A model generated the notes under the pieces. It did not search any database. It saw nothing but the letters and a program-made list of their open reading frames with translations, and had not been told where the DNA came from. Source: Deltaproteobacteria bacterium (lineage in GTDB: Bacteria > Myxococcota > JADLHZ01). Taken from it: a stretch of 60,876 nucleotides of DNA. The stretch spans positions 1 to 60,876 of the forward strand of contig JADLHZ010000153.1 of the NCBI GenBank assembly GCA_020848545.1, in the 5' to 3' direction. This document shows, piece after piece, positions 22,342 through 58,678 of the stretch. The position numbers and the translations under genes were made by a program. The number at the start of each line of letters is the position of its first letter. Within the stretch, counting starts at the first letter, position 1.

Positions 22342-23056
22342 GGCGGTCCTCCGCGTCGCGCTCGCCAAGGCGCTGGCGAATGCGGTGGACGGCCTGTGCG
22401 TGCAGTTGACACACCCGCGCGGCGGTCAGGTTCATCACCTCCCCGATCTCGCGAAACGACAGGTCATGGTCGTAGTGCATGGCCATCACTTGCTGTTCTT
22501 TGAGCGGCAGAAGGTCGATCGCTTCGATCAATGCCGCTCGTAGCTCACTGCGTTCGGCTCGTTCTGCTGGATCTGAGGCTGCATCGCGCGCGTCGCGCAG
22601 CATCGGCTCTTCCGGATCTACGGCGATCGCCTTCACCGTCGCCACTGAGTCGAGCATCGCCAGGTACGCTGGCAACGCGACGCCGAGCTCGCCGGCGATC
22701 TCCTCTTCGCTCGCCGCGCGGCCGAGCTTCTGCGATGCGTTCGTCATCGCCGTCTGCAGCTTCTTCGAGAGCGTGCGCAAATCCTGCGACAGGTCGTCGG
22801 CCTTGCGCAGCTCGTCGATCATCGCCCCGCGGATGCGCAGCGTAGCATAACCGACGAAGCTGTCGGCGCGCGTCGGATCGAAGCGCTTCGATGCCTCGAG
22901 GAGGCCCATCATCCCCGCGCTCAAAAGCTCGTCGTCCCGGACGCGCGCGTGCGGTCCACGCGAGAGCTTTTGGACATGGCGGCGCACGACGGGAATCAGT
23001 GCGCGGATGACGCCGTCCCGGTCGAGCTCGTGGCTCAAGGTGATCTGACTTTTCAT
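22334..23056 (-). CDS. fliA: Flagellar sigma factor FliA (sigma-28)
   Basis: 240 aa. Region 2 (DDELLSAGMMGLLEASKRFD; YATLRIRGAMIDELRKADDL), region 3 and region 4 (LPLKEQQVMAMHYDHDLSFR, NLTAARVCQLHAQAVHRIRQ) are all in place. FliA directs RNA polymerase to late genes such as fliC and is held by FlgM. The ATG at 23056 overlaps the flhG stop (ATGA). The flhA-flhF-flhG-fliA string is common among polar flagellates. Confidence 0.96.
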   Translation of the reverse strand: MKSQITLSHELDRDGVIRALIPVVRRHVQKLSRGPHARVRDDELLSAGMMGLLEASKRFDPTRADSFVGYATLRIRGAMIDELRKADDLSQDLRTLSKKLQTAMTNASQKLGRAASEEEIAGELGVALPAYLAMLDSVATVKAIAVDPEEPMLRDARDAASDPAERAERSELRAALIEAIDLLPLKEQQVMAMHYDHDLSFREIGEVMNLTAARVCQLHAQAVHRIRQRLGERDAEDRHG

Positions 23057-23853
23057 GACACAACCTCTGCAGCGGCGGCCAATCGGCGCCAGAACGACAC
23101 GCCGCGGTTGCCGCCCTCTTCGGGATCTCTCAGGCGGCAAGCGAGCACTCGCAGGCAATGGCTGGCCGGCGCCGTCGGGCGGTCCACGACGAACGGCACG
23201 CCCTGGCGCCACGCGGCTGGGATCGCAGCGTCGCGGCAGACGTAGCCGACGAGCTCGACGCGTAGCTGCAGAAACCGCCGCGCCATCAGCTCGATAGTCT
23301 CGTAGGCGACCTGCGCGTCTGCGGCGGTCTCGACCATGTTGACGAGTAAGCGCACGCTCTTGACGGCGAAGCGCTGTGACAAGACCTTCATGGTCGCGTA
23401 TGCATCGGCCATCGAAGCGAGCTCGCGCGTGGTGACGACGATGATCTGCGACGCGGCGGCGGCGAACGTCATGGCCGTCGCACCAATACCGGCGCCGGTA
23501 TCGATGATGATCGTGTCAAAGCTGCCCTGCAGCGTCTCGACCGCATGCAGAAGACCCATCCGACGGTGCTCGTCGAGATTCGCAAGATCGAAGCTGCCAG
23601 CGTAGGCTGGGAGCAGCTTCACGCCGCATGGCGTCTCGACGATCGCGTCGGCGATCGCCACTGAGCCATCTATGACGTCGCGCAAGCTGTGCGCCGGCCG
23701 GACGTTGAAGGCGATGTTCATGTCAGCGAGGCCGAGATCGGCGTCGATCACGAGCACGCGGGCGCCGGTGTTTTGCAGCGACACGGCGAGCCCGGACGCG
23801 AGCGACGTCTTACCGACGCCGCCCTTGCCGCTGGTGATGGCAATCACGTTCAT
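23053..23853 (-). CDS. flhG: FlhG (FleN/YlxH) MinD-type ATPase
   Basis: 266 aa. The deviant Walker A TSGKGGVGKTSLASG is at residues 7-21, the second motif VLVIDADLGLADMN follows, and IIIDTGAGIG sits near 110. The C-terminus ends FWRRLAAAAEVVS, which could be a membrane-targeting amphipathic helix. FlhG limits flagellar number by acting on FlhF. The N-terminal DQAxxLR activation helix found in many FlhG proteins is absent: the ATPase begins at residue 2. It overlaps flhF by four bases. Confidence 0.93.
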   Translation of the reverse strand: MNVIAITSGKGGVGKTSLASGLAVSLQNTGARVLVIDADLGLADMNIAFNVRPAHSLRDVIDGSVAIADAIVETPCGVKLLPAYAGSFDLANLDEHRRMGLLHAVETLQGSFDTIIIDTGAGIGATAMTFAAAASQIIVVTTRELASMADAYATMKVLSQRFAVKSVRLLVNMVETAADAQVAYETIELMARRFLQLRVELVGYVCRDAAIPAAWRQGVPFVVDRPTAPASHCLRVLACRLRDPEEGGNRGVSFWRRLAAAAEVVS

Positions 23854-24998
23854 ACGAAGCGCTCCTCCACGACGATGCTCTCACCGCACAACGCCGTGAT
23901 GAGGCTCGGCACCACTCGCGAAACGACGCCGGCGGTTGAGACGAGCTCGATGTCTTCGGGGATGCGCTGTCCCGTGGTCCAGTAGGACAGCGGCAGACGA
24001 TCATTGGCGATCACCGCAGCGAGCGGCGCGAAGTCATGCGTTTCATCGATCTTCGTGAAGCAAATGCGGTTCACCGAAAATCCGCGGTAGCTCTGCACCA
24101 CCGCTCGCAGTGCGCGTGGACCATACATGGCAGGCAACGCCAGGTGGATCTCGGTGCGTTTGTCGCGCGCGATGAGCTTCTTGCCGATCTCGACGAGCTC
24201 CGGTTGCGTCGACGGGTCGCGGCCAGGGGTGTCGATCAGGATCAGATCCGCTGCCGCATGCGCATCGAGCGCCGCCATCAGCTGCGCGGCATTCTTTGCG
24301 GTCAAGAGCTCACAGCCGATGAGCTTCGTGTAGCGTGCGAGCTGCTCGATGGCGCCGGCGCGAAAGGTGTCGAGCGTGATCACGACGACGCGCTTGTTCT
24401 CTTCGAGCGCCGCGGCGGCGGCCCACTTCGCGATGGTCGTGGTCTTGCCCGCGCCAGAGGGCCCCACGCACATGCACACACGCGCACCCGCCGCGCCGAC
24501 CGGGCCGGTCAGATCGACGGCGTCCCACACGAGCTTTTCCACAGCGACCATGAAGTCTTTGCTTTGCGTGATGCGTGCCGACCACGCGCGCGCCATTTCC
24601 AGGGAAAAACCAAGCGAAATGAGGTGTGCGACAATGGGCGTGTCAGAACTCGCATCACCCAAGTGGCCACCTCTGACAGCGCCCGGGCGCGAGACGAAAG
24701 AGACGAGCTGCGCGCGGAGTCGACGCATCTCGGCCTCGAGAGGCTTCAGGCGCTCGTCGAACGCCGGGCCTTTTGGCTCGGGAGCCGTAGCGGTGCGATA
24801 GGCGGCGAGCGCTATTTCGTTGCGCGGGAGCGGTGTCGCTGCGGTATCTGGTTCTTGGGCGACGACTTCGACCGCGCGTCCGAATAGACCGTCGCGTACG
24901 CTAGCGGTCGATACGACGAGCGCCTCCTCGCCGAGCGACGACTTCACCGCGGCGAGTGCTTCACGCAGGTCGCGACCACGGAAGGTTTGCTGAGTCAC
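23850..24998 (-). CDS. flhF: Flagellar SRP-type GTPase FlhF
   Basis: 382 aa. The N-terminal basic B region (FRGRDLREALAAVKSSLGEE) is followed by a helical N domain and a G domain with CVGPSGAGKTTTIAKW (about 177-192), VVITLDTFRAGAIEQL, ILIDTPGRDPS and the guanine-specificity motif TKID. FlhF marks the site of flagellar assembly at the membrane. The start is GTG 24998, with GAGGAGG five bases upstream; a TTG ten codons earlier lacks such a site. It lies 44 bases after flhA. Confidence 0.95.
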   Translation of the reverse strand: MTQQTFRGRDLREALAAVKSSLGEEALVVSTASVRDGLFGRAVEVVAQEPDTAATPLPRNEIALAAYRTATAPEPKGPAFDERLKPLEAEMRRLRAQLVSFVSRPGAVRGGHLGDASSDTPIVAHLISLGFSLEMARAWSARITQSKDFMVAVEKLVWDAVDLTGPVGAAGARVCMCVGPSGAGKTTTIAKWAAAAALEENKRVVVITLDTFRAGAIEQLARYTKLIGCELLTAKNAAQLMAALDAHAAADLILIDTPGRDPSTQPELVEIGKKLIARDKRTEIHLALPAMYGPRALRAVVQSYRGFSVNRICFTKIDETHDFAPLAAVIANDRLPLSYWTTGQRIPEDIELVSTAGVVSRVVPSLITALCGESIVVEERFV

Positions 24999-25042
24999 GA
25001 GTGCCTCCTCTGCGACGAGGAGGAGCAATCAACGTGCCACGG

Positions 25043-44788: not shown

Positions 44789-45577
44789 ATGGATTTTGCC
44801 AGCATCGCAGGCCTGCTGCTCGCCATCGGAGCCATCTTGGGCGGGCAGGCGCTCGAGGGCGGTCATATCGGCTCGATTGCGCAACCGACCGCGGCGCTCA
44901 TCGTCGTAGGCGGCACGATCGGCGCGGTGGCGGTGTCGTTTCCAGGTCACGCGTTGAAGGCCGCGATTGCCGCAACGAAAACGGTGTTCAAACCGCACCA
45001 TGTAGACTACGGTGCCGTTGCGCAGCAGCTGATCGGCTTCGCGACACAGGCCCGACAGAACGGCATCATCGCCATCGAAAAGAGCGTTGCCGAGCTCAGC
45101 GATCCCTTTCTGAAGAAAGCGCTCAACCTCGCCGTCGACGGCACCGACGGCAAGGCGATTCGCAGCACGATGGAGCTCGATCTCGCGCGCGAAGAGGAAG
45201 AGGCCGAGGCCCCAGCCAAGGTCTACGAAGCCGCCGGTGGCTTCGCACCTACTGTTGGTATTTTGGGCGCGGTGCTCGGCCTCATCCACGTGATGGAGAA
45301 CCTGAGCGACCCGAGCAAGCTCGGGTCGGGCATTGCCGTCGCTTTTGTTGCCACGGTGTACGGCGTCGGGCTTGCGAACCTCTTCGTGCTGCCGATGGCG
45401 AGCAAGCTAAAGATGCGTGCTGCCGAGCACGCTCGCCTGCGCGAGCTCATGATTGAAGGGGTTGTGGCGATTGTCGATGGAGAAAATCCGCGCCTCATCA
45501 AAGAGAAGCTCGCGGCGTTGAGCGGTCAAGCGATGGACGGCGAAGGCGGCGACAAGGCCGTGAAGAAGGCGGCGTAG
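44789..45577 (+). CDS. motA: Flagellar stator protein MotA
   Basis: 262 aa. It has four transmembrane helices, the first two at the start (IAGLLLAIGAILGGQALEGG) and the second pair with GGFAPTVGILGAVLGLIHVM and VAFVATVYGVGLANLFVLPM, which carry the two functional prolines. The cytosolic loop (about 60-145) interacts with FliG. It lies 3 bases after flbD. Confidence 0.97.
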   Translation: MDFASIAGLLLAIGAILGGQALEGGHIGSIAQPTAALIVVGGTIGAVAVSFPGHALKAAIAATKTVFKPHHVDYGAVAQQLIGFATQARQNGIIAIEKSVAELSDPFLKKALNLAVDGTDGKAIRSTMELDLAREEEEAEAPAKVYEAAGGFAPTVGILGAVLGLIHVMENLSDPSKLGSGIAVAFVATVYGVGLANLFVLPMASKLKMRAAEHARLRELMIEGVVAIVDGENPRLIKEKLAALSGQAMDGEGGDKAVKKAA

Positions 45578-45579
45578 TC

Positions 45580-46389
45580 ATGGCACGCAAAAAGAAACCG
45601 CCCGAGCACGTCAACCACGAGCGTTGGCTCGTCTCCTATGCAGACTTCATTACGCTGCTCTTTGCTTTTTTTACGACGCTCTACGCAATCTCGACAGTAG
45701 ACGCGAAGAAAGCCGGAAAGCTCGTGATGTCGCTCCGCGCGGTGTTCGATCTCGACCCCTTCGTCAGTGACAAGCCGATGCTCGGCGCCGATTCCACGGA
45801 ACCGCCGCCGCTCTCTGGCACGGTGGCGCCGCGCCTTCGGCCGATCCGCGTCAGCGGCATTCCGTCGCCGAATCGACAGGTCAAGCGCATGAGTCGGCTC
45901 ATCCACCGCCTCACGACCGCGCTCGAGATCTACTCGAAGAGCGACCTCGTGCGTGTCACGAAGGAGCCGCGCGGCGTCGTCGTCACCTTGGACGCGGGCG
46001 GTTTTTTTTCCAGCGGGTCGGAGCGCTTGCTCCCCCGACCGCGTGCAGCGCTCGACCTCATTGCCGATACTCTCAAGGGCGTGCAGCTGCCGGTGCGAGT
46101 CGATGGCCACACAGACAGCGAGCCCGTGCGAGGCGGTCGTTTCCGATCGAACTGGGAGCTCTCGACCTCGCGGGCCGTCACGATCGTCTCCTACTTGTCG
46201 CAGAAGTACCGATATCCCCCGGACCTTCTCAGCGCCGCCGGCTACGGAGACACGCGCCCGGTGGTGCCGAATGACACAGCGACGAACCGCGCGAAGAATC
46301 GTCGCATCGAGATCGTCATCCTGCGCGAACCGGCGGCGGTTTTCCCAGCCAAGTGGGTCTTTGATACCCAGGGCGAGGCCGACGACTGA
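45580..46389 (+). CDS. motB: Flagellar stator protein MotB
   Basis: 269 aa. One N-terminal transmembrane helix carries the ion-binding Asp in RWLVSYADFITLLFAFFTTL. The plug region is followed by an OmpA-like peptidoglycan-binding domain (VDGHTDSEPV; FRSNWELSTSRAVTIVSYLS; NRAKNRRIEIVIL). The YADF pattern is of the proton-driven type, by family analogy. It lies 2 bases after motA. Confidence 0.96.
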   Translation: MARKKKPPEHVNHERWLVSYADFITLLFAFFTTLYAISTVDAKKAGKLVMSLRAVFDLDPFVSDKPMLGADSTEPPPLSGTVAPRLRPIRVSGIPSPNRQVKRMSRLIHRLTTALEIYSKSDLVRVTKEPRGVVVTLDAGGFFSSGSERLLPRPRAALDLIADTLKGVQLPVRVDGHTDSEPVRGGRFRSNWELSTSRAVTIVSYLSQKYRYPPDLLSAAGYGDTRPVVPNDTATNRAKNRRIEIVILREPAAVFPAKWVFDTQGEADD

Positions 46390-46421: not shown

Positions 46422-47807
46422 ATGCAACCGTTCAGCGTGCTCATCGTCGACGATGAAGAACTGTTCTTGAAAGCGGTGTCGCGGGACTTGCTTCCGCTCG
46501 GCGTGGGCGTGCACTCCACGACGAGTGCGGCGGATGCGCTTACGCTGCTCGAGCAATACCGTCCGGCGGTCGTGCTCAGCGATATTCGCATGCCTGGGAT
46601 GAGCGGCATCGACCTCCTCGGCGAAATCAAGCGTGTCGATCCGACGACCGCCGTCGTGATGATAAGCGGCACCGCTCACGCAACGGAAGCGGTCACGGCG
46701 CTCAAGCTCGGTGCCTTCGACTACGTGGAGAAGCCGTACACCGATGCCGCCGAGCTGCGAGAGGTGCTCGCGAAGGCGGCTGCCGCTGCGCTGGTCGAGC
46801 GCGGAACGAGCGCCTCGTCGCCGCGCCTGCTCGGAGAGAGCGCTGCAATGCGACGCGTCCGCACTGCCATTGACACCGTTGCCCGTACCGACGCGACGGT
46901 GCTCATCGTCGGCGAGAGCGGTACGGGCAAAGAGCTCGCAGCGCGCGCGATCCACGATCGGAGCAGGCGCGCCACGAAGCCGTTCGTCGCGGTCAACTGC
47001 GCCGCGATCAGCGAGAGCCTCCTCGAGAGCGAGCTGTTTGGCCACGAGCGCGGCGCGTTCACCGGAGCCGCGACGAGCCGACGAGGCCTGTTCGAGGCCG
47101 CACAAGGCGGCACGATCTTCCTCGATGAGATCGGCCACGTTTCGCCGGGCGTGCAAACGAGCCTTCTGCGTGTCCTGCAGGAACGCGAGATCCGACGCGT
47201 CGGGGCGTCTGAAAGCACGAAGGTCGACGTGCGGGTTGTCGCGGCAACAAACGCCAACCTGTCGCGGCTGATTACAGAGGGACGGTTCAGGCTCGATCTC
47301 TACTATCGATTGAACGTCATCGAGCTGCAGCTGCCACCGCTCAGGCGCCGCGAGGGCGACGTGCTGCTGATTGCCGAGCACCTTCTGCATCGTTTCGCCA
47401 AGGAGCTCGGCAAGCAGGCGGTGTCTTTTTCTGCGGAGGCCATGCACGTGCTCGAGGCGCACCGTTGGCCTGGTAACGTCCGCGAGCTCGAAAACATCGT
47501 CTATCGCGCGGTGCTCGGCTCGAGCGGCCGCACCGTCGAGCGCATCGACCTCGAAAGAGAACAGACCCCGCTGCAGGCGCTCACCGACGTTCCGCCTCTG
47601 AGCACGGGGAACTATTCGGCGCAACGCCGCGACCTCGTACAGCACTTCGAACAACGCTATCTCGAGTTGCTGCTCGCGCGCACCGGCGGGAACTTGTCTC
47701 AGGCCGCGCGGTTGTCCGGAATCGACCGGTCGAACCTGCGCCGCATGTTGCGCGAGCACGGCCTGCGGCCAATGGCCGTGCATAGCGAATCGGAGCGAGC
47801 ATCATGA
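46422..47807 (+). CDS. Second NtrC-family sigma-54 activator
   Basis: 461 aa. The receiver has its phospho-site in VVLSDIRMPGMSGI and FDYVEKPY. AAA+ domain: Walker A GESGTGKELAARAI, sigma-54 loop ERGAFTGAATSRRG, Walker B TIFLDEIGHVSPGV. The Fis-type helix-turn-helix is GGNLSQAARLSGIDRSNLRR. It lies 32 bases after motB with no good ribosome site, at the tail of the flagellar unit. Its targets could be flagellar or the partner-switching genes downstream; the sequence does not decide. The stop overlaps the next receiver gene by four bases. Confidence 0.92.
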   Translation: MQPFSVLIVDDEELFLKAVSRDLLPLGVGVHSTTSAADALTLLEQYRPAVVLSDIRMPGMSGIDLLGEIKRVDPTTAVVMISGTAHATEAVTALKLGAFDYVEKPYTDAAELREVLAKAAAAALVERGTSASSPRLLGESAAMRRVRTAIDTVARTDATVLIVGESGTGKELAARAIHDRSRRATKPFVAVNCAAISESLLESELFGHERGAFTGAATSRRGLFEAAQGGTIFLDEIGHVSPGVQTSLLRVLQEREIRRVGASESTKVDVRVVAATNANLSRLITEGRFRLDLYYRLNVIELQLPPLRRREGDVLLIAEHLLHRFAKELGKQAVSFSAEAMHVLEAHRWPGNVRELENIVYRAVLGSSGRTVERIDLEREQTPLQALTDVPPLSTGNYSAQRRDLVQHFEQRYLELLLARTGGNLSQAARLSGIDRSNLRRMLREHGLRPMAVHSESERAS

Positions 47808-48386: not shown

Positions 48387-48800
48387 GTGACTTACGTTCA
48401 AGACCACACAATCGACAGTCATCTTATGAGCTTCGAGCGAATCGCCGATGGACATATTGAAGTGAGTTACACGAGCGCCGAGGATATGGCGCCAGAGCAG
48501 CAGCGGGCGTTGATCGACGCTATAGAACGCGAACTGTCTGCGAGGCGGCTCACGGTCTTGTTTCGTGTCGGATCGATCTCGGTGCCACCCGCGGTGCCGA
48601 CTTTCTGGCTGAATGTCACGAAAAAGCACGCGCCGAAGCTGCGCGCCATGGCTGTCGTATCCGACTCGGTCGCAGTGCGTGCCGCCGCAACCAGCTTCGG
48701 CATAGCCAATATTCTGCGCGGCGTATCCGTCGCAGTGAGACCGTTCAAGAACAGTGAGGTCGAGATCGCGCGACAGTGGTGTCAATCAAGCAACGCGTGA
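48387..48800 (+). CDS. SpoIIAA/STAS-like protein
   Basis: 137 aa from GTG 48387, or ~124 aa from ATG 48426; neither has a good ribosome site. The fold looks like the SpoIIAA-like (STAS/SEC14) family, with strand-helix repeats ending LRAMAVVSDSVAVRAAATSF and a closing AVRPFKNSEVEIARQW. No clear serine-phosphorylation motif is seen. Ten bases after the receiver gene and before a PP2C phosphatase gene, it fits as an anti-anti-sigma-like partner, though this is inference. Confidence 0.65.
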   Translation: MTYVQDHTIDSHLMSFERIADGHIEVSYTSAEDMAPEQQRALIDAIERELSARRLTVLFRVGSISVPPAVPTFWLNVTKKHAPKLRAMAVVSDSVAVRAAATSFGIANILRGVSVAVRPFKNSEVEIARQWCQSSNA

Positions 48801-48882
48801 GGCCGCCTCCATCCCGGCATTGCTGGCATCGATCTCGGCACACTCCACCATCAGCAATTCGCGAGCTGAGAAACAAAGAGGA

Positions 48883-48908
48883 AAGTTTTCGAGCGCGTTG
48901 TAAAACTT
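48883..48908. repeat. Inverted repeat just before the PP2C gene
   Basis: AAGTTTT and AAAACTT form a 7-bp inverted repeat with a 12-base spacer that ends four bases before the GTG start. This AT-rich patch could be an operator or part of a promoter. The surrounding 112-base gap has no clear sigma-54 or sigma-28 pair. Confidence 0.45.
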
Positions 48909-48912
48909 AGCC

Positions 48913-50079
48913 GTGAAGCGTTCGAGCCTGATTCTCCGTCTCGTCTTGCTCTCCTGCTTACCCATGCTCGTTGGTTATGGTTTGACGAGCAGCGTCGGTA
49001 TCGCGGTTGGTCTCAAGACTCAGAGCTTGCTCGGCCCCTTGCTCAATCGAGAGCCCGACGTTGCGGCACAACTGGAAGCGCATTACGATAGCATGCGTCG
49101 CGTGATGATCGGTCTCACACTCTTGACGCTCGTCGGTGCGACGGCAATGGCGGCTCTCTATTCGCGCGAGATCGGTCGCTCGATTCGGTCGATGTCGAGC
49201 GCGGCGAAGGCGATTGCAGATGGCCGATTGGACCTTGCTCCGCCACAGCCCACGCGGGTGAACGAGCTCCACACGCTAGGCGAAGCGCTTTTTGCGATGC
49301 AACAATCGCTCGTACGCGCGATCGACACCGAGCGACAAAAGGCGGCGCTCGAGAAAGAGGCCGCGGTTGGCGCAGCGGTGCAGGCGTTGTTCTTGCCGAG
49401 GAAAACGGCGCTTACCAGAGCAGGTTATGCTCTCGCTGGCTATCATCGCGCCGCCGCTATTTGCAGTGGCGACTGGTGGCATCACTGCTCGGACGATCCC
49501 GCGTACGTGCGGATCTTGCTTGCCGACGTGACGGGGCACGGCGTTGGCTCTGCCCTGGTCACGGCGACCGCGAGCGGCATGCTCGCTCAGCTCGAACGGC
49601 ACGCGCCTTCTGACCCTCGTGAGCTGCTGGAGTCGCTTCACCAGGGCATCCGCAAGCTCTGCGCCGGCGAATACAATATGTGCGTATCCCTATTGCAGCT
49701 CGATTGCGTGACCCGTGTCACGACTTGGGTCAACGCCGGCGCACCGCCGCTCTTCATTTCTAAGCCCTCGGGGGAAATCGAGGCCCATGTCGGCTACAGC
49801 ACACCGCTCGGAGGGGACGACTTGCAGTTGTCGTCCATGCGGTTTTCGCCTGACAAAGCCGCCCGCATCCTTGCTTTCACTGATGGCTTGGCGGAGCTAC
49901 AGTTGCCGACCGGAATGCCGCTCGGGCACGGTCAGCTGAAACGTTGGTTCGAAGATTCGATGAGGCTCGACGTTGTTTCGGCACGGGACGACATGGTCAA
50001 GCGAATTGATGCATGCACCGCCGGCCAGCCATTGAAAGATGACCTCACATTTGTGGTCATCACGAGCGAACGCGCATGA
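48913..50079 (+). CDS. Membrane HAMP-PP2C phosphatase (RsbU/SpoIIE type)
   Basis: 388 aa. Two transmembrane helices (about 6-34 and 63-83) enclose a short ~28-residue outer loop. A HAMP domain (84-135) follows, then a SpoIIE-type PP2C domain with CSGDWW (184-189), DVTGHGVGSALV (205-216), NAGAPP, TDGLAE and DDLTFVVI; the metal-binding acids are kept. It probably dephosphorylates a STAS-type protein, perhaps one of the two neighbours. Start is GTG 48913, lacking a near ribosome site. The stop overlaps the next gene (ATGA). Confidence 0.88.
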   Translation: MKRSSLILRLVLLSCLPMLVGYGLTSSVGIAVGLKTQSLLGPLLNREPDVAAQLEAHYDSMRRVMIGLTLLTLVGATAMAALYSREIGRSIRSMSSAAKAIADGRLDLAPPQPTRVNELHTLGEALFAMQQSLVRAIDTERQKAALEKEAAVGAAVQALFLPRKTALTRAGYALAGYHRAAAICSGDWWHHCSDDPAYVRILLADVTGHGVGSALVTATASGMLAQLERHAPSDPRELLESLHQGIRKLCAGEYNMCVSLLQLDCVTRVTTWVNAGAPPLFISKPSGEIEAHVGYSTPLGGDDLQLSSMRFSPDKAARILAFTDGLAELQLPTGMPLGHGQLKRWFEDSMRLDVVSARDDMVKRIDACTAGQPLKDDLTFVVITSERA

Positions 50080-52251: not shown

Positions 52252-53292
52252 TCACGGTACGGTCGCAGACGGAACCGCGTGCGCAGCACCGCGACGGCCG
52301 TTGACCATCGCCTGACCCGAGAGCGTTAGGCGGCCGATCATGTTGAAAACGACGGGCACCGCGTGCGGAGCCGCAGCACCCGAGTCTGCTACTCGGCGTG
52401 CCACTCTCGACGTACGTAGCCTCTTCTGCACGTACATCGCAGCGTCGGCGCGGTCCAAAATCGCAGCGAGTGAATCGCTTGGCGCCGAAGACTCGGCGAA
52501 GCCCACGCTCATGCGGAGCGTGATCCCGGCGTTGGTTGCGTTGAAGCTATCGATCGCGGCTTCGAGCCGCCGTAGCGCGCCCTCGGGATCGGCGTCCATC
52601 CCTGCGACGACGAACTCGTCGCCGCCGAGGCGGGCCACAACATCGGTGGAACGAAAGGTTTCGGCGAGCACCTTGCCGGCGCTTGCGATCGCCTGATCGC
52701 CCGCCGCGTGGCCGTGTTCGTCGTTGATTGCTTTCAGACCATCGAGATCGATCGAGAACACCGTCATCTTTCCGCTCTGGCGCCGCGCGATGCCGAACAA
52801 TCGCTCGGCGTGAGCTTCAAAACCCCGCCGGTTCAGCAGCTGGGTCAACGGGTCGCGCTCCGATTCTGTGTTGAGCCGATCGAAGCGCTCGCGAGCGCGT
52901 GCACGTTCGGCCCGTTGCGACGCGGCGAGCAGAAGCGCAGCCTTGAGCTCGGCCGGGCTGAAGGGTTTGCCCACGCATCCGGAGGCGCAGCCCTCTTCTA
53001 CCAGGTGCGTAGCGATCGCCTCGTCAAGTGCGCCAGACATGTAGACAACCGCGGTGGTGCCTGCGTTCGCGATCGCCCGGCCGACCTGTATCCCGTCTGC
53101 CGCGGTGCGGAGGTTGATGTCGACCAGCGCGACGTCCGGAGAGAGCTCTGTACACGCAGCGAGAGCTTCTTCGGCGGTGTGCGCGACTGACGCTACGGAG
53201 AGACCGAAGGTGCGAATGAGACGAACCACACTGCGAGTGAAGGCGGCGTCGTCATCGACGATAAGAATGCGCGCTGCGGGAGTGGTGATCAT
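52252..53292 (-). CDS. Receiver-GGDEF diguanylate cyclase
   Basis: 346 aa. Receiver: LIVDDDAAFTR, phospho-site D58 in VALVDIN, and VGKPFSPAEL. GGDEF domain: DPLTQLLNRRGFEAH, IDLDGLKAINDEHGHAAGDQ and RLGGDEFV with the active GGDEF at 223-227. The product-inhibition site RxxD (RSTD, 214-217) is exactly five residues before it. It should therefore make c-di-GMP under feedback control. It is divergent from the MinD-PilZ gene 171 bases away. Confidence 0.9.
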   Translation of the reverse strand: MITTPAARILIVDDDAAFTRSVVRLIRTFGLSVASVAHTAEEALAACTELSPDVALVDINLRTAADGIQVGRAIANAGTTAVVYMSGALDEAIATHLVEEGCASGCVGKPFSPAELKAALLLAASQRAERARARERFDRLNTESERDPLTQLLNRRGFEAHAERLFGIARRQSGKMTVFSIDLDGLKAINDEHGHAAGDQAIASAGKVLAETFRSTDVVARLGGDEFVVAGMDADPEGALRRLEAAIDSFNATNAGITLRMSVGFAESSAPSDSLAAILDRADAAMYVQKRLRTSRVARRVADSGAAAPHAVPVVFNMIGRLTLSGQAMVNGRRGAAHAVPSATVP

Positions 53293-53463
53293 GCACCCAG
53301 TGTCGAGTCTACCCACCCGATCGATAGTCGCGCGTACTCCGACCCACCAAGACCGCGGTTGTCGCACATCAACCGACCGCTTCGTGTCGTAGCGTTCACC
53401 TGGTGCGGTTCGCCGCTTGCAAGCTCAACCGGATTTGGCGCTGATCAAGGATGCTTCGACAGC

Positions 53464-54738
53464 ATGCGCATGCGAATCGTTGCGGTCGGCGGAGGCAAAG
53501 GGGGCGTTGGCAAGAGCCTCGTCGCGGCAAATCTGGCCATTGCTCTCGCCGAAGGGGGCGCTCGGGTCGTCGCCGTCGATGCCGACCTCGGTTGCGCCAA
53601 CCTGCACGCCTTGTTCGGAATCGAGCGGCCGCGCCATACGCTCGGCGCGTTCTTTGCGCGCGAGGCGGACACGCTCGGCGAGCTAGCGATCGCGACGAGC
53701 GTTGCCGGCTTGGAGCTCGTGGTCGGCTCGGGCGCGATCGTCGGCGCGGCGAACATCTCTTGGGCGCAAAAGCAACGGCTGCTTCGGCAGATTCTCGCGC
53801 TGGACGCGGACGTGGCGGTGATCGACGTCGGCGCCGGCACGTCGTACAACGTGCTCGATATCTTCGACGTGGCCAACGTGCGATTGATGGTCGTGAGCCC
53901 CACGCTCCCGTCGGTGCAGAACGCCTTTTCGTTCTGCAAGGGTGCTGTCGTGCGCGCGCTCCGCCAAGCCTTCGTCGACGCAGGAGTAGACCCAGCGCTC
54001 GGCGAGCGGCGCGAAACCGAGCGCCTGACGGCGACCATCGCGAGGTTGTCTCTGCAGCATCCGGCCCTCGGCGCGCGGATCGCCCACGCACTTTCACACT
54101 TCAATGCGATGATCGTCGCCAACCAGCTGACCCGCGTCGAGGATCTCGATCTCGTACACGCCCTCTGCCGGATGACACACGACTTTCTCGGCGTGTCGGC
54201 GAACATCGTCGGCCAGATCTATCAGCGCCCAGCGATCGCCCAGTCTGTCATCGCGCGGCGCCCGTTCCTACTCGGCGCCGAACGGGACGATCCAGAAGCG
54301 CGCATGTTCCGCCGCATGGCGCGCACTTTGCTTGACGGCGTGTTGGCTGAGCCGGGACGTGCTTCTAAAGCTCTTCCTCCCGCGGGCGGTCCCGACATGG
54401 GCGCGTTCGATCTCGATCCCTCGGCGTTGCGCGCGCACCCCCGGCACGCAGCGGACTGGGCGGCGACGCTCGAGACCGAGAACGGCATTGTCGAAGGGAT
54501 GATCGCGGACGTGTCGGAAAACGGCGTTCGCTTCATTGGCCCGTGTGGTCGCCCGATCGCGGTGAGCGGCACGGCCATTGTGTGCGTAGCGGGGTTTTCC
54601 GGCGCCGCAGAGGCATCCGTTCGCTGGGTGAGCGCTGCCGAAGGCGGCCGACTCGTCGTCGGGTTGGAGCTCACCGGCGGATCTTTGACCGGCGAGATCT
54701 TGACGAAGAGCGCGCTCCGTTACGCCGCCGCTGGGTGA
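53464..54738 (+). CDS. MinD/FlhG-like ATPase fused to C-terminal PilZ-like domain
   Basis: 424 aa. Residues 1-300 are a MinD/ParA ATPase: deviant Walker A GGGKGGVGKSLVAANL (9-24), VVAVDADLGCANLH (35-48) and VAVIDVGAGTSYNV. A helical insert of ~40 residues follows (about 165-205). Residues 320-405 look like a PilZ domain with RAHPR (RxxxR, 323-327) and DVSENG (349-354), the c-di-GMP-binding pattern. It is a second FlhG-like protein besides the operon copy. ATG 53464 or 53470 could be the start. I infer c-di-GMP control of a positioning ATPase. Confidence 0.82.
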   Translation: MRMRIVAVGGGKGGVGKSLVAANLAIALAEGGARVVAVDADLGCANLHALFGIERPRHTLGAFFAREADTLGELAIATSVAGLELVVGSGAIVGAANISWAQKQRLLRQILALDADVAVIDVGAGTSYNVLDIFDVANVRLMVVSPTLPSVQNAFSFCKGAVVRALRQAFVDAGVDPALGERRETERLTATIARLSLQHPALGARIAHALSHFNAMIVANQLTRVEDLDLVHALCRMTHDFLGVSANIVGQIYQRPAIAQSVIARRPFLLGAERDDPEARMFRRMARTLLDGVLAEPGRASKALPPAGGPDMGAFDLDPSALRAHPRHAADWAATLETENGIVEGMIADVSENGVRFIGPCGRPIAVSGTAIVCVAGFSGAAEASVRWVSAAEGGRLVVGLELTGGSLTGEILTKSALRYAAAG

Positions 54739-55973: not shown

Positions 55974-58678
55974 TTGTCTTCGAGTAAGCCTAACTTGCCT
56001 GCACTCAAGACGTCGGCTCTACTCCCGAGCGTGCGGCCGCTACCAAAAACGTTTCTCGTGACGATCGGCATCGCCGTCGCGTACTGGGCAACAGGACGCC
56101 TCGGGCTGCTCTTGGCGATCCCTCCGGGTTACGCGACCGCCGCGTGGCCACCGGCCGGCATCGCGCTCGGCGCAGCGCTCATGCTCGGCCCGCGCGCACT
56201 CTTCGGGATATGGCTCGGGTCGTTCGCGGTGAACTTCGACCCCGCGCTTTTTCCGTCGGCCAAGGGGTTGCTCGTGCCGACGGCAATAGGCCTCGGTGCG
56301 GTCGCTCAGGCGGCCGTTGGCGTAACGCTCACACGCGCACTGATGCGCTCGCCGTTGACCTTGCTCTCCCCGCGCGATGTGACCGTCTTCTCTCTCGGCG
56401 ATCGGAAGCTGTCTCGTCGCGAGCACTTGGGCTACTGGCGTTTTGCTTGCGACCGGGCTTGCCACAGCGGACGCGACGTTCACTTGGTGGACGTGGTTTC
56501 TTGGCGACGCCCTTGGCTCCCTCATCTTCGCGCCTATCTGCCTCGTCCTCTTCGCGCAGCCCGCAAGGTATTGGCGTCCACGTCGAGTCGCTCTTTGTGT
56601 CACGTTATTCGTCGCTTTTTCCGTGGTCATCGGGGTTTTCGTCTCGTTTCGCGACTATGAAGATAGAGAAGACGCCGAGCGTCATGCGGCGATCGAGGCG
56701 CAAATCGTCCGGGCCCTCGAAGACGGGATTGCGCACGACCTGATGGCGTTGCGCGAGGTTCGCGATTTCGTGACGAGCGTGGCCGAGCTCGACGAGGCCG
56801 TGTTCGAGCGTTTCGCGAAGGGCATCGTCGCGCGCTACCCCTCGATCCAGGCGGTGTCATGGAATGCACACGTTGTGGCGGGGGAGCGGGACTCCTTCGA
56901 ACGCCGCCAGGGCCGCCCTATCGTCGACCTGACACCGTCGGGAGATCTCGTACGCGCAGGCAGCAGAGCCGAGTATTCCCATCACCTTGATCGCGCCGCT
57001 CGAGACGAACGCGAGCGTCCGCGGCCTCGACGTGTTTGCCATTGACGACCGTCGAGCGGCGATCGTCCGCGCGCGGACGGAGAACACCGTGGCGGCTACG
57101 GCGTTGCTCGAGCTCGTGCAAGCGGCGGGGAAAACGGACGGGCTCATCTATTATATGCCCGTCACGGAGAAGCCCGATGGCGTGGTCGCACTCGTGCATC
57201 GCACGCACTTGACCTTGCGACGCGTCTTTCACGATGTCATCGACGACACGATGAACGTCGCGGTGCGCGACGTGACTGAGAGCGACGCACCCGTGGAATT
57301 GTATCGATCCAGCCGTGATGTCCCGGCGGGGGCGATACGACGAATTGCGCCCCCGATCACGGTGGCGGGACGAAAGTGGGAGCTTTCGAGCTTTCAGGCG
57401 CCGCTGCAGCCGCGGCAGCGAGGCAAAGTCGCCTACTGGACCTTGGCAACCGGCTTTGCTTTCACGGGTCTACTCGGCGTGTTGATTCTCATCCTCACTG
57501 GCCACGCGCTCTCAGTCGAGGCCGAGGTTGGCGCGCGCCTCGCCGATCGCGAGCATCGCTTCCGCGCGTTGCTCGAATCGGCTCCTGATGCGGTTGTGAT
57601 CGCAGACGCCAACGGGAGCATCGCGTACGCGAACGAGCAAGTGCGACGGTTGCTCGGCTATGGCGTGGAGATCGTCGGCCGATCGGTCGAAACCCTGGTC
57701 CCGGCGCACCTAGTCGAAGGCCACCGAGCCCTGCGTGGTGACGCCGAGAGGGGCCGGATACCCCGGATGATGGGCGCGGGACGGATTCTCGGTGCCCGGC
57801 ATGCGGACGGGCATATCATCCCCGTCGACATCAGTCTGAGCATGATCCAAACGAACGAAGGAAAGCTGTTCTACGCTGCGATTCGTGACGCCACTGAGCG
57901 GCAGCACACGATCGAGCTACAGCGACGGGCGAGCGAGCTCGAGCAGGGCATTCAGCGGGCGAACGAGGCTAATCGATTGAAAGGTGAGCTCCTCGCGACC
58001 ATGTCGCACGAGTTGCGGACGCCTCTCAATGGCATTCTTGGCTTCGCGCAGCTGCTTCTCTCGGAAAAGCTTGGACCTCTTACTCCAACACACAAACAGT
58101 GCATCGCCGACATCAGGACGAGCGGTCAGCACCTCCTCCGCCTGGTCAACGACGTCCTCGACATGGCGAAGCTCGAGGCCGGCAAGCTCGAGTTGGCGTT
58201 GGCGGAGACGGACATCGGCGCACTGGTCAACGAAGTCGTCGAAGTGCTCTCTGTTCTCGCGCAGACGAAGCATATCGAGCTCGTCATGGAACCACCGGCC
58301 GTCGCAACCGCGCGAACCGACGCGTTGAAGGTGAAGCAGATCGTCTACAATTACGTTTCGAACGCAGTGAAATTCGCTCCAGCTCAAACCCGCGTTCGCA
58401 TCGCTGTGATCCGCGAGGGCGAGCACGCGTTCCGAATTGCCGTGCACGACCAAGGCCGTGGCATACCGATAGCGGATCAGGCGAAGCTCTTTAGCGAGTT
58501 CATCCAGCTCGGCACCGGACACGAACGGACCGCCGGCAGCGGAATCGGCTTGGCTCTCTCGAAGCGCTTGGCCGAGGCGCTCGGCGGCAGCGTCGGCGTC
58601 GAGAGCGATATCGGCAAGGGCAGCACTTTTTGGGTCGTACTGCCGCTGGAGACGAGGGCCCGAGAGGTGGCCGCGTGA
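55974..58678 (+). pseudogene. MASE1-CHASE-PAS histidine kinase with two frameshifts
   Basis: Three reading frames join into one protein of ~900 aa. Frame A (55974 to ~56400) has the first MASE1 helices (PPGYATAAWPPAGIALGAAL). Frame B (~56401 to ~56977) continues MASE1 (TFTWWTWFLGDALG) and starts a CHASE domain. Frame C (~56978 to 58678) continues CHASE (PITLIAPLETNASVRGLDVF), then a transmembrane helix, PAS (LLESAPDAVVIADANGSIAY), HisKA (MSHELRTPLNGIL) and HATPase (NYVSNAVKFA; DQGRGIP; GSGIGLAL). Each break is one extra base (or two lost), at about 56400 and 56977. The kinase core is intact, so the decay is recent, or these are sequencing errors. The start (TTG 55974 or near) is uncertain. 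Confidence 0.8.

Follow-up and report, generated by a model that had tools for sequence, protein, structure and literature searches.

Within the window (the whole 60,876-nucleotide stretch analysed here, contig JADLHZ010000153.1 of a myxococcotal Deltaproteobacteria bacterium), one open reading frame encodes a MinD-type ATPase followed by a PilZ domain (Table 1). Translation returns exactly the coordinates, frame and motifs of the initial annotation, with GGGKGGVGKS at residues 9-18, DADLG at 39-43, RAHPR at 323-327 and DVSENG at 349-354, including the 22 residues that separate RAHPR from DVSENG. Pfam matches ParA to residues 4-145 (54.9 bits), CbiA to residues 6-202 (52.1 bits), and PilZ (PF07238) to residues 322-408 (28.1 bits, where the cut-off is 22.5), and thus upholds the PilZ-type domain that had been read on the ATPase, with both motifs intact; the PilZ score rises to 31.5 bits in a scan confined to the C-terminal 112 residues, and a scan of the whole genome recovers the same domain at 30.9 bits as one of 48 PilZ matches. 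Third-position G+C in the frame is 0.80 over residues 1-300 and 0.76 over residues 301-424, with no sharp step at the junction (second-position values are 0.47 and 0.59); the frame is open from end to end, and no frame slip is visible in G+C by codon position. The joining of ATPase and PilZ domain in a single chain is a real fusion.

Table 1. Features of the window; positions count from its first letter.
Feature	Position	Strand	Basis
FlhG proper	23053..23853	-	tree; beside flhF
FlhF	23850..25028	-	Pfam SRP54; NCBIfam TIGR03499 158.6 bits, just below cut-off 174.15
motA and motB	44789..46389	+	Pfam
Sigma-54-dependent response regulator	46422..47807	+	Pfam
REC-GGDEF response regulator (diguanylate cyclase), head-to-head with fusion	52252..53292	-	Pfam; GGDEF motif intact; start codon
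Divergent intergenic region, 171 bp	53293..53463	.	promoter scan
MinD-type ATPase + PilZ fusion, 424 aa	53464..54738	+	translation; Pfam
ATPase domain, residues 1-292	53464..54339	+	AlphaFold2 model mostly confident; best solved-structure matches FleN, FlhG
Deviant Walker A GGGKGGVGKS	53488..53517	+	motif reading
PilZ domain (PF07238)	54427..54687	+	Pfam, score above curated cut-off
RxxxR motif RAHPR, R323 and R327	54430..54444	+	motif reading
(D/N)xSxxG motif DVSENG, residues 349-354	54508..54525	+	motif reading

The ATPase part carries the deviant Walker A, DADLG and DVGAG motifs, and in 20 aligned ATPase rows DADLG never varies and DVGAG hardly does. All that marks a deviant-Walker ATPase of the MinD/ParA kind (Walker A, DxD, Walker B and fold) is found in the fusion, and with its motifs both present and conserved the ATPase is likely active. 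The closest solved structure by sequence is FleN (1.1e-15), and the folds closest to the modelled ATPase are FleN-AMPPNP (TM by target 0.88) and FlhG (0.86). An insert of about 45 residues, predicted to be helical, follows residue 170; the last ATPase helix (residues 277-291), which is amphipathic and basic by a moment scan only, is followed by the PilZ domain.

The PilZ fold is a six-stranded barrel with a C-terminal helix. In the full-length AlphaFold2 model the PilZ part has pLDDT mostly below 50, though its strand order suits such a barrel; modelled alone from a three-row alignment, it has a mean pLDDT of 39 and lacks the C-terminal helix. A phmmer search of the PDB with this domain alone found no PilZ structure, a 13-row profile that includes it finds PDB PilZ structures by a match that the other rows could carry, and a search of viral contigs for further PilZ rows for modelling found none. 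The domain is divergent, with 11-21% identity to the 12 other PilZ sequences aligned. Across all 13, however, R327, S351 and G354 are invariant and R323 is nearly so, and the c-di-GMP motifs of PilZ domains are given as RxxxR and (D/N)xSxxG in PMC10333796. Of further alignments, A8 was taken, by eye, because trimming brought the motifs into register; A6 and A7, with the arginine motif out of register, were set aside.

The divergently encoded REC-GGDEF protein, with its intact GGDEF motif, bears out the active-looking diguanylate cyclase that the initial annotation had placed next door. A scan of the 171 bp between the two genes gave no clear promoter, the best sigma-54-like site having 3 mismatches and the best sigma-28-like site 5. 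The genome holds 26 GGDEF matches besides its 48 PilZ matches, so the fusion and the cyclase beside it need not form an exclusive pair. The interval from the motility genes to the fusion contains, at 48387-50079, a SpoIIAA-like and then a HAMP-SpoIIE protein. At 55974-58678 a MASE1 frame is followed by CHASE-PAS-HisKA-HATPase in a later frame, representing either two genes or a single kinase gene with frame breaks.

The window also has the plain FlhG that had been annotated in the flagellar operon; its frame overlaps that of flhF by four bases, whereas the fusion gene has no flhF neighbour. A third copy of the wider family lies in the same genome at C44:271764-272663. The fusion had been called a second FlhG/MinD-like ATPase, and of this the MinD-type assignment and the structural proximity to FleN and FlhG stand, but not descent from FlhG: in a tree of 53 rows the fusion falls in a ten-genome clade (100/97) apart from the 19 FlhG rows (100/100) and separate also from paralogues resembling the third copy, and a second tree of 37 rows supports the same clade at 100/99. 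The membership list of this clade was first drawn by bit score and afterwards tested by tree; rows without a P-loop match (L029, L064, L065, L066, L069, L070, L072, L073, and L076) were dropped, and the 37-row tree omits L145, L144, L146, L063 and 14 of the 19 FlhG rows and contains L142 re-cut. That the fusion is a second FlhG by descent is rejected on the split of the FlhG rows in these trees. Nor is it a cell-division MinD by the TIGR01968 equivalog model, where its 56.2 bits fail the cut-off of 212.9.

FlhG carries a C-terminal amphipathic membrane-targeting helix and, at its N-terminus, an FlhF-activating DQAxxLR stretch. The latter is absent from the fusion, and the window's own FlhG likewise lacks the N-terminal extension. 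Compared with the flagellar-number regulators FlhG/FleN/YlxH, which provide the best structural match, the fusion shares the ATPase fold, the Walker motifs and a flagellar context, but differs in its separate clade, its insert of some 45 residues, the lack of an flhF neighbour, and its C-terminal PilZ domain.

Nearest by sequence is a DnaJ-linked MinD paralogue, represented by the third copy (L108) and its relatives L109 and L110, which has the insert in common with the fusion. It differs in its MinD-DnaJ-RluD surroundings (read by eye, with an HNH gene in those of L108 and L110), in having no PilZ domain in L108, and in occurring without flagella; in G049, the genome of L109, the sole FliG match is below the cut-off. 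At L145 3778-5991 (minus strand) we noticed by eye a 672-residue chain with MinD-type ATPase, DnaJ-like and helix-turn-helix parts, a single chain where L108-L110 have MinD and DnaJ as neighbouring genes.

To place the fusion among its relatives, 195 genomes of the phylum were searched with the fusion protein, FliG_C and the window's FlhG. The clade was found in ten genomes of ten genera, all ten of which have a strong FliG match (E below 1e-24, a threshold fixed after the table had been seen) against 49 of the 195 overall (Fisher p 4.7e-7); on a looser count of 83/195 the p value is 1.4e-4, and because the genomes are kin both values make the association look stronger than it is. The clade is missing from 39 of the 49 genomes with a strong FliG, so flagella do not need its ATPase. 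Each of the ten has in addition, apart from the clade gene, a match to the window's FlhG (E 1e-20 or better), and six of these matches grouped with FlhG in the tree. Further FlhG-like matches occur in G102-G105, G140, G173-G175, G177-G180, G011, and G029, mostly at 31-36% identity, those in G173 and G029 being fragments at 40% and 48%.

Gene neighbourhoods were read in the window and around the clade gene of eight out of nine relatives (L100-L107), the ninth (G025) lying on a 3352-base contig; flagellar neighbours were identified by matching them to window genes with a Pfam name. Five relatives have the clade gene adjoining flagellar or FliA-like genes: i) in G134, G137, and G176 there are motB, fliL, fliN, flhB, and flhA matches nearby, joined in G137 and G176 by motA, for which the 16 kb read in G134 gave no match; ii) in G018 there are flagellin and fliD matches; and iii) in G172 the gene overlaps by four bases that of a FliA-like sigma-70 region-4 protein. 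No flagellar neighbours were read in G105, G138, or G173, and in G138 an FHA-GGEEF gene lies some 3 kb from the clade gene. Together with the distribution of FliG, the five relatives favor the flagellar link that the initial annotation had suggested.

Some of this gene order invites a reading in which the ATPase would place MotAB units or control their number, with c-di-GMP altering swimming through the stator. In G137 and G176 the clade gene stands between motA and a GGDEF-motB-fliL string, in G134 the same string lies to one side, and in the window motAB is 7 kb from the fusion. Other members, however, sit beside a FliA-like factor or flagellin genes or, in the f4 type described below, near flgB-flgC-fliE, and a partner cannot be named from gene order alone; we consider stator control quite improbable. 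More generally, the neighbourhoods vary among motor and export genes, filament genes, and a sigma factor, with basal-body rod genes in the f4 type, and because they differ in this way the partner cannot be read from them.

The PilZ domain itself is fused in two of the ten clade members. When the fused architecture was sought in other genomes, as had been proposed, one further case in the clade emerged, in G105 (33.6 bits); in the other eight members nothing passes the Pfam cut-off for PilZ. The tail of the G172 protein, with DVTQDG, looks by eye like a degenerate PilZ domain, and is called PilZ neither by Pfam nor by a custom profile. The PilZ domains of the window and G105 miss each other: with the window's as query there is no hit in G105 up to an E-value of 10, and with that of G105 as query other PilZ genes are recovered up to E 0.1, but the one in the window is not. 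A single ancestral PilZ fusion is therefore not supported, and the two fusions may have been gained separately, although short, fast domains can lose signal and a single old fusion may be hidden in this way.

The association with c-di-GMP does not end with the fusions. A GGDEF gene stands head-to-head with the clade gene in the window's genome (G000) and in G134, G137, and G176, where the ATPase has no PilZ domain and the GGDEF gene lies upstream of motB; the last three, all f8 cases, may reflect one inherited arrangement. With 20-28 GGDEF matches in each of these four genomes, a GGDEF neighbour on either side would be expected for fewer than 1% of genes (this and the corresponding PilZ expectation assume 1.1 kb per gene). 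In G003, G030, and G044, the only f4 genomes with FliG (3/9), all outside the clade, there is a second ATPase that belongs to the wider family, and a PilZ gene of its own standing, with both motifs intact (31.5, 42.4, and 28.9 bits), overlaps its end by 4, 14, and 29 bases respectively with likely ATGs. These genomes hold 38-51 PilZ matches, from which a PilZ neighbour on either side would be expected for about 2% of genes. At E up to 1e-40, full-length matches to this second ATPase occur only in the same three among the 195 genomes. The ATPase-PilZ pair of G003 and G030 is flanked by a sigma-54 regulator on one side and, on the other, by genes for basal-body rod proteins that we read as flgB and flgC. 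Placement of the f4 ATPases inside the fusion's clade is not rejected (AU p 0.261). A PilZ fusion in one lineage and neighbouring genes in another are what one would expect if the two parts function jointly. At L141 4475-6447, L142 5183-7130, and L143 3170-5126, all on the minus strand, the f4 ATPase ends in an extension of its own, some 90 residues long and similar in the three, after which comes the PilZ gene, whose product has a further N-terminal half.

The sigma-54 regulators raise the prospect of a transcriptional anti-activator in the style of FleN acting on FleQ, in which the ATPase would restrain a sigma-54-dependent flagellar regulator and c-di-GMP would release or strengthen its hold. 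Such a regulator lies in the window's cluster, matching ones lie beside the ATPase-PilZ pairs of G003, G030, and G044 and adjoin the clade gene in G172, and the fold of the fusion is nearest to FleN; in the trees, however, the fusion is not FlhG/FleN by descent, and the window's regulator is 5.7 kb away. We think this unlikely. A MinD-type ATPase with some other task, its PilZ domain idle or its response to c-di-GMP directed to pili, chromosome, or polysaccharide, would fit the three members in which no flagellar neighbours were read, the DnaJ-linked sister family that occurs without flagella (as in G049), and the divergence of the PilZ domain. The presence of FliG in every clade genome, the intact PilZ motifs, and the recurrence of PilZ and GGDEF association count against it, and we regard it as rather unlikely.

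We give an even chance to the reading that the fusion is a MinD-type ATPase acting on the flagellum beside FlhG, with its dimer state or partner binding set by c-di-GMP on its own PilZ domain. MinD-type ATPases are ATP sandwich dimers that bind membrane or a partner and are reset by hydrolysis. In the circuit we propose, a kinase would phosphorylate the divergently encoded REC-GGDEF protein, which would then make c-di-GMP; the PilZ domain, sitting where FlhG has its membrane-targeting helix, would bind it; this would alter how the ATPase dimerises with ATP or how it grips a flagellar partner; and flagellar assembly, number, or use would vary with c-di-GMP. It is because the PilZ domain takes the place of the FlhG membrane helix that we think of dimer state or partner contact as the step controlled. 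Binding of c-di-GMP, its supply by the neighbouring cyclase, the partner, and the direction of control are what we infer, and the relatives suggest that such ATPases are linked to both flagella and c-di-GMP.

A broader proposal, which we put forward tentatively and at somewhat less than an even chance, is that in flagellated members of the phylum a MinD-type family other than FlhG has come under c-di-GMP on several occasions, whether by PilZ fusion, by a neighbouring PilZ gene, or by a divergent diguanylate cyclase, so that a positioning or number-control ATPase would read the second messenger directly. A receptor within the ATPase chain would pose the direct question of how a second messenger sets the place and number of flagella, and if the proposal is true a ligand input would be added to the MinD/ParA positioning family, for which, to our knowledge, little is known of such inputs.

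The best-studied case of c-di-GMP reaching a MinD-type flagellar ATPase is FleQ-FleN of Pseudomonas, in which FleQ, a transcription factor, binds c-di-GMP and links it to the ATPase. That system likewise brings c-di-GMP and a MinD-type flagellar ATPase together, but the receptor of the fusion would sit in the ATPase chain itself. Other relevant precedents are i) the PilZ-DnaK fusions CsdK1 and CsdK2 of Myxococcus xanthus (PMC10313047), which also place PilZ on a nucleotide-hydrolysing machine, there a chaperone and not a positioning ATPase; and ii) YcgR-type proteins (xPilZ-PilZ), in which PilZ acts on flagella as well but which have no ATPase, YcgR being termed a flagellar motor brake (PMC10333796). 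A search of open-access titles and abstract openings, which misses most subscription papers, yielded no MinD, ParA, or FlhG fused to PilZ, and the available passages of PMC10313047, PMC10333796, and PMC10241942 do not mention such a fusion, in agreement with the initial annotation, which knew of no described system of this kind.

Beyond the phylum, a scan of contigs returned 37 relatives, none extending past query residue 297, with four of its six patterns in the ATPase and hence weak for fusions, and a scan of plasmids returned one weak ATPase match. Within the clade, an HDOD gene (Pfam) directly precedes the MinD-type gene of G018 with 12 bases between (L107 6977-8824), and an HDOD-like match lies upstream of the clade gene in G025 (L010).
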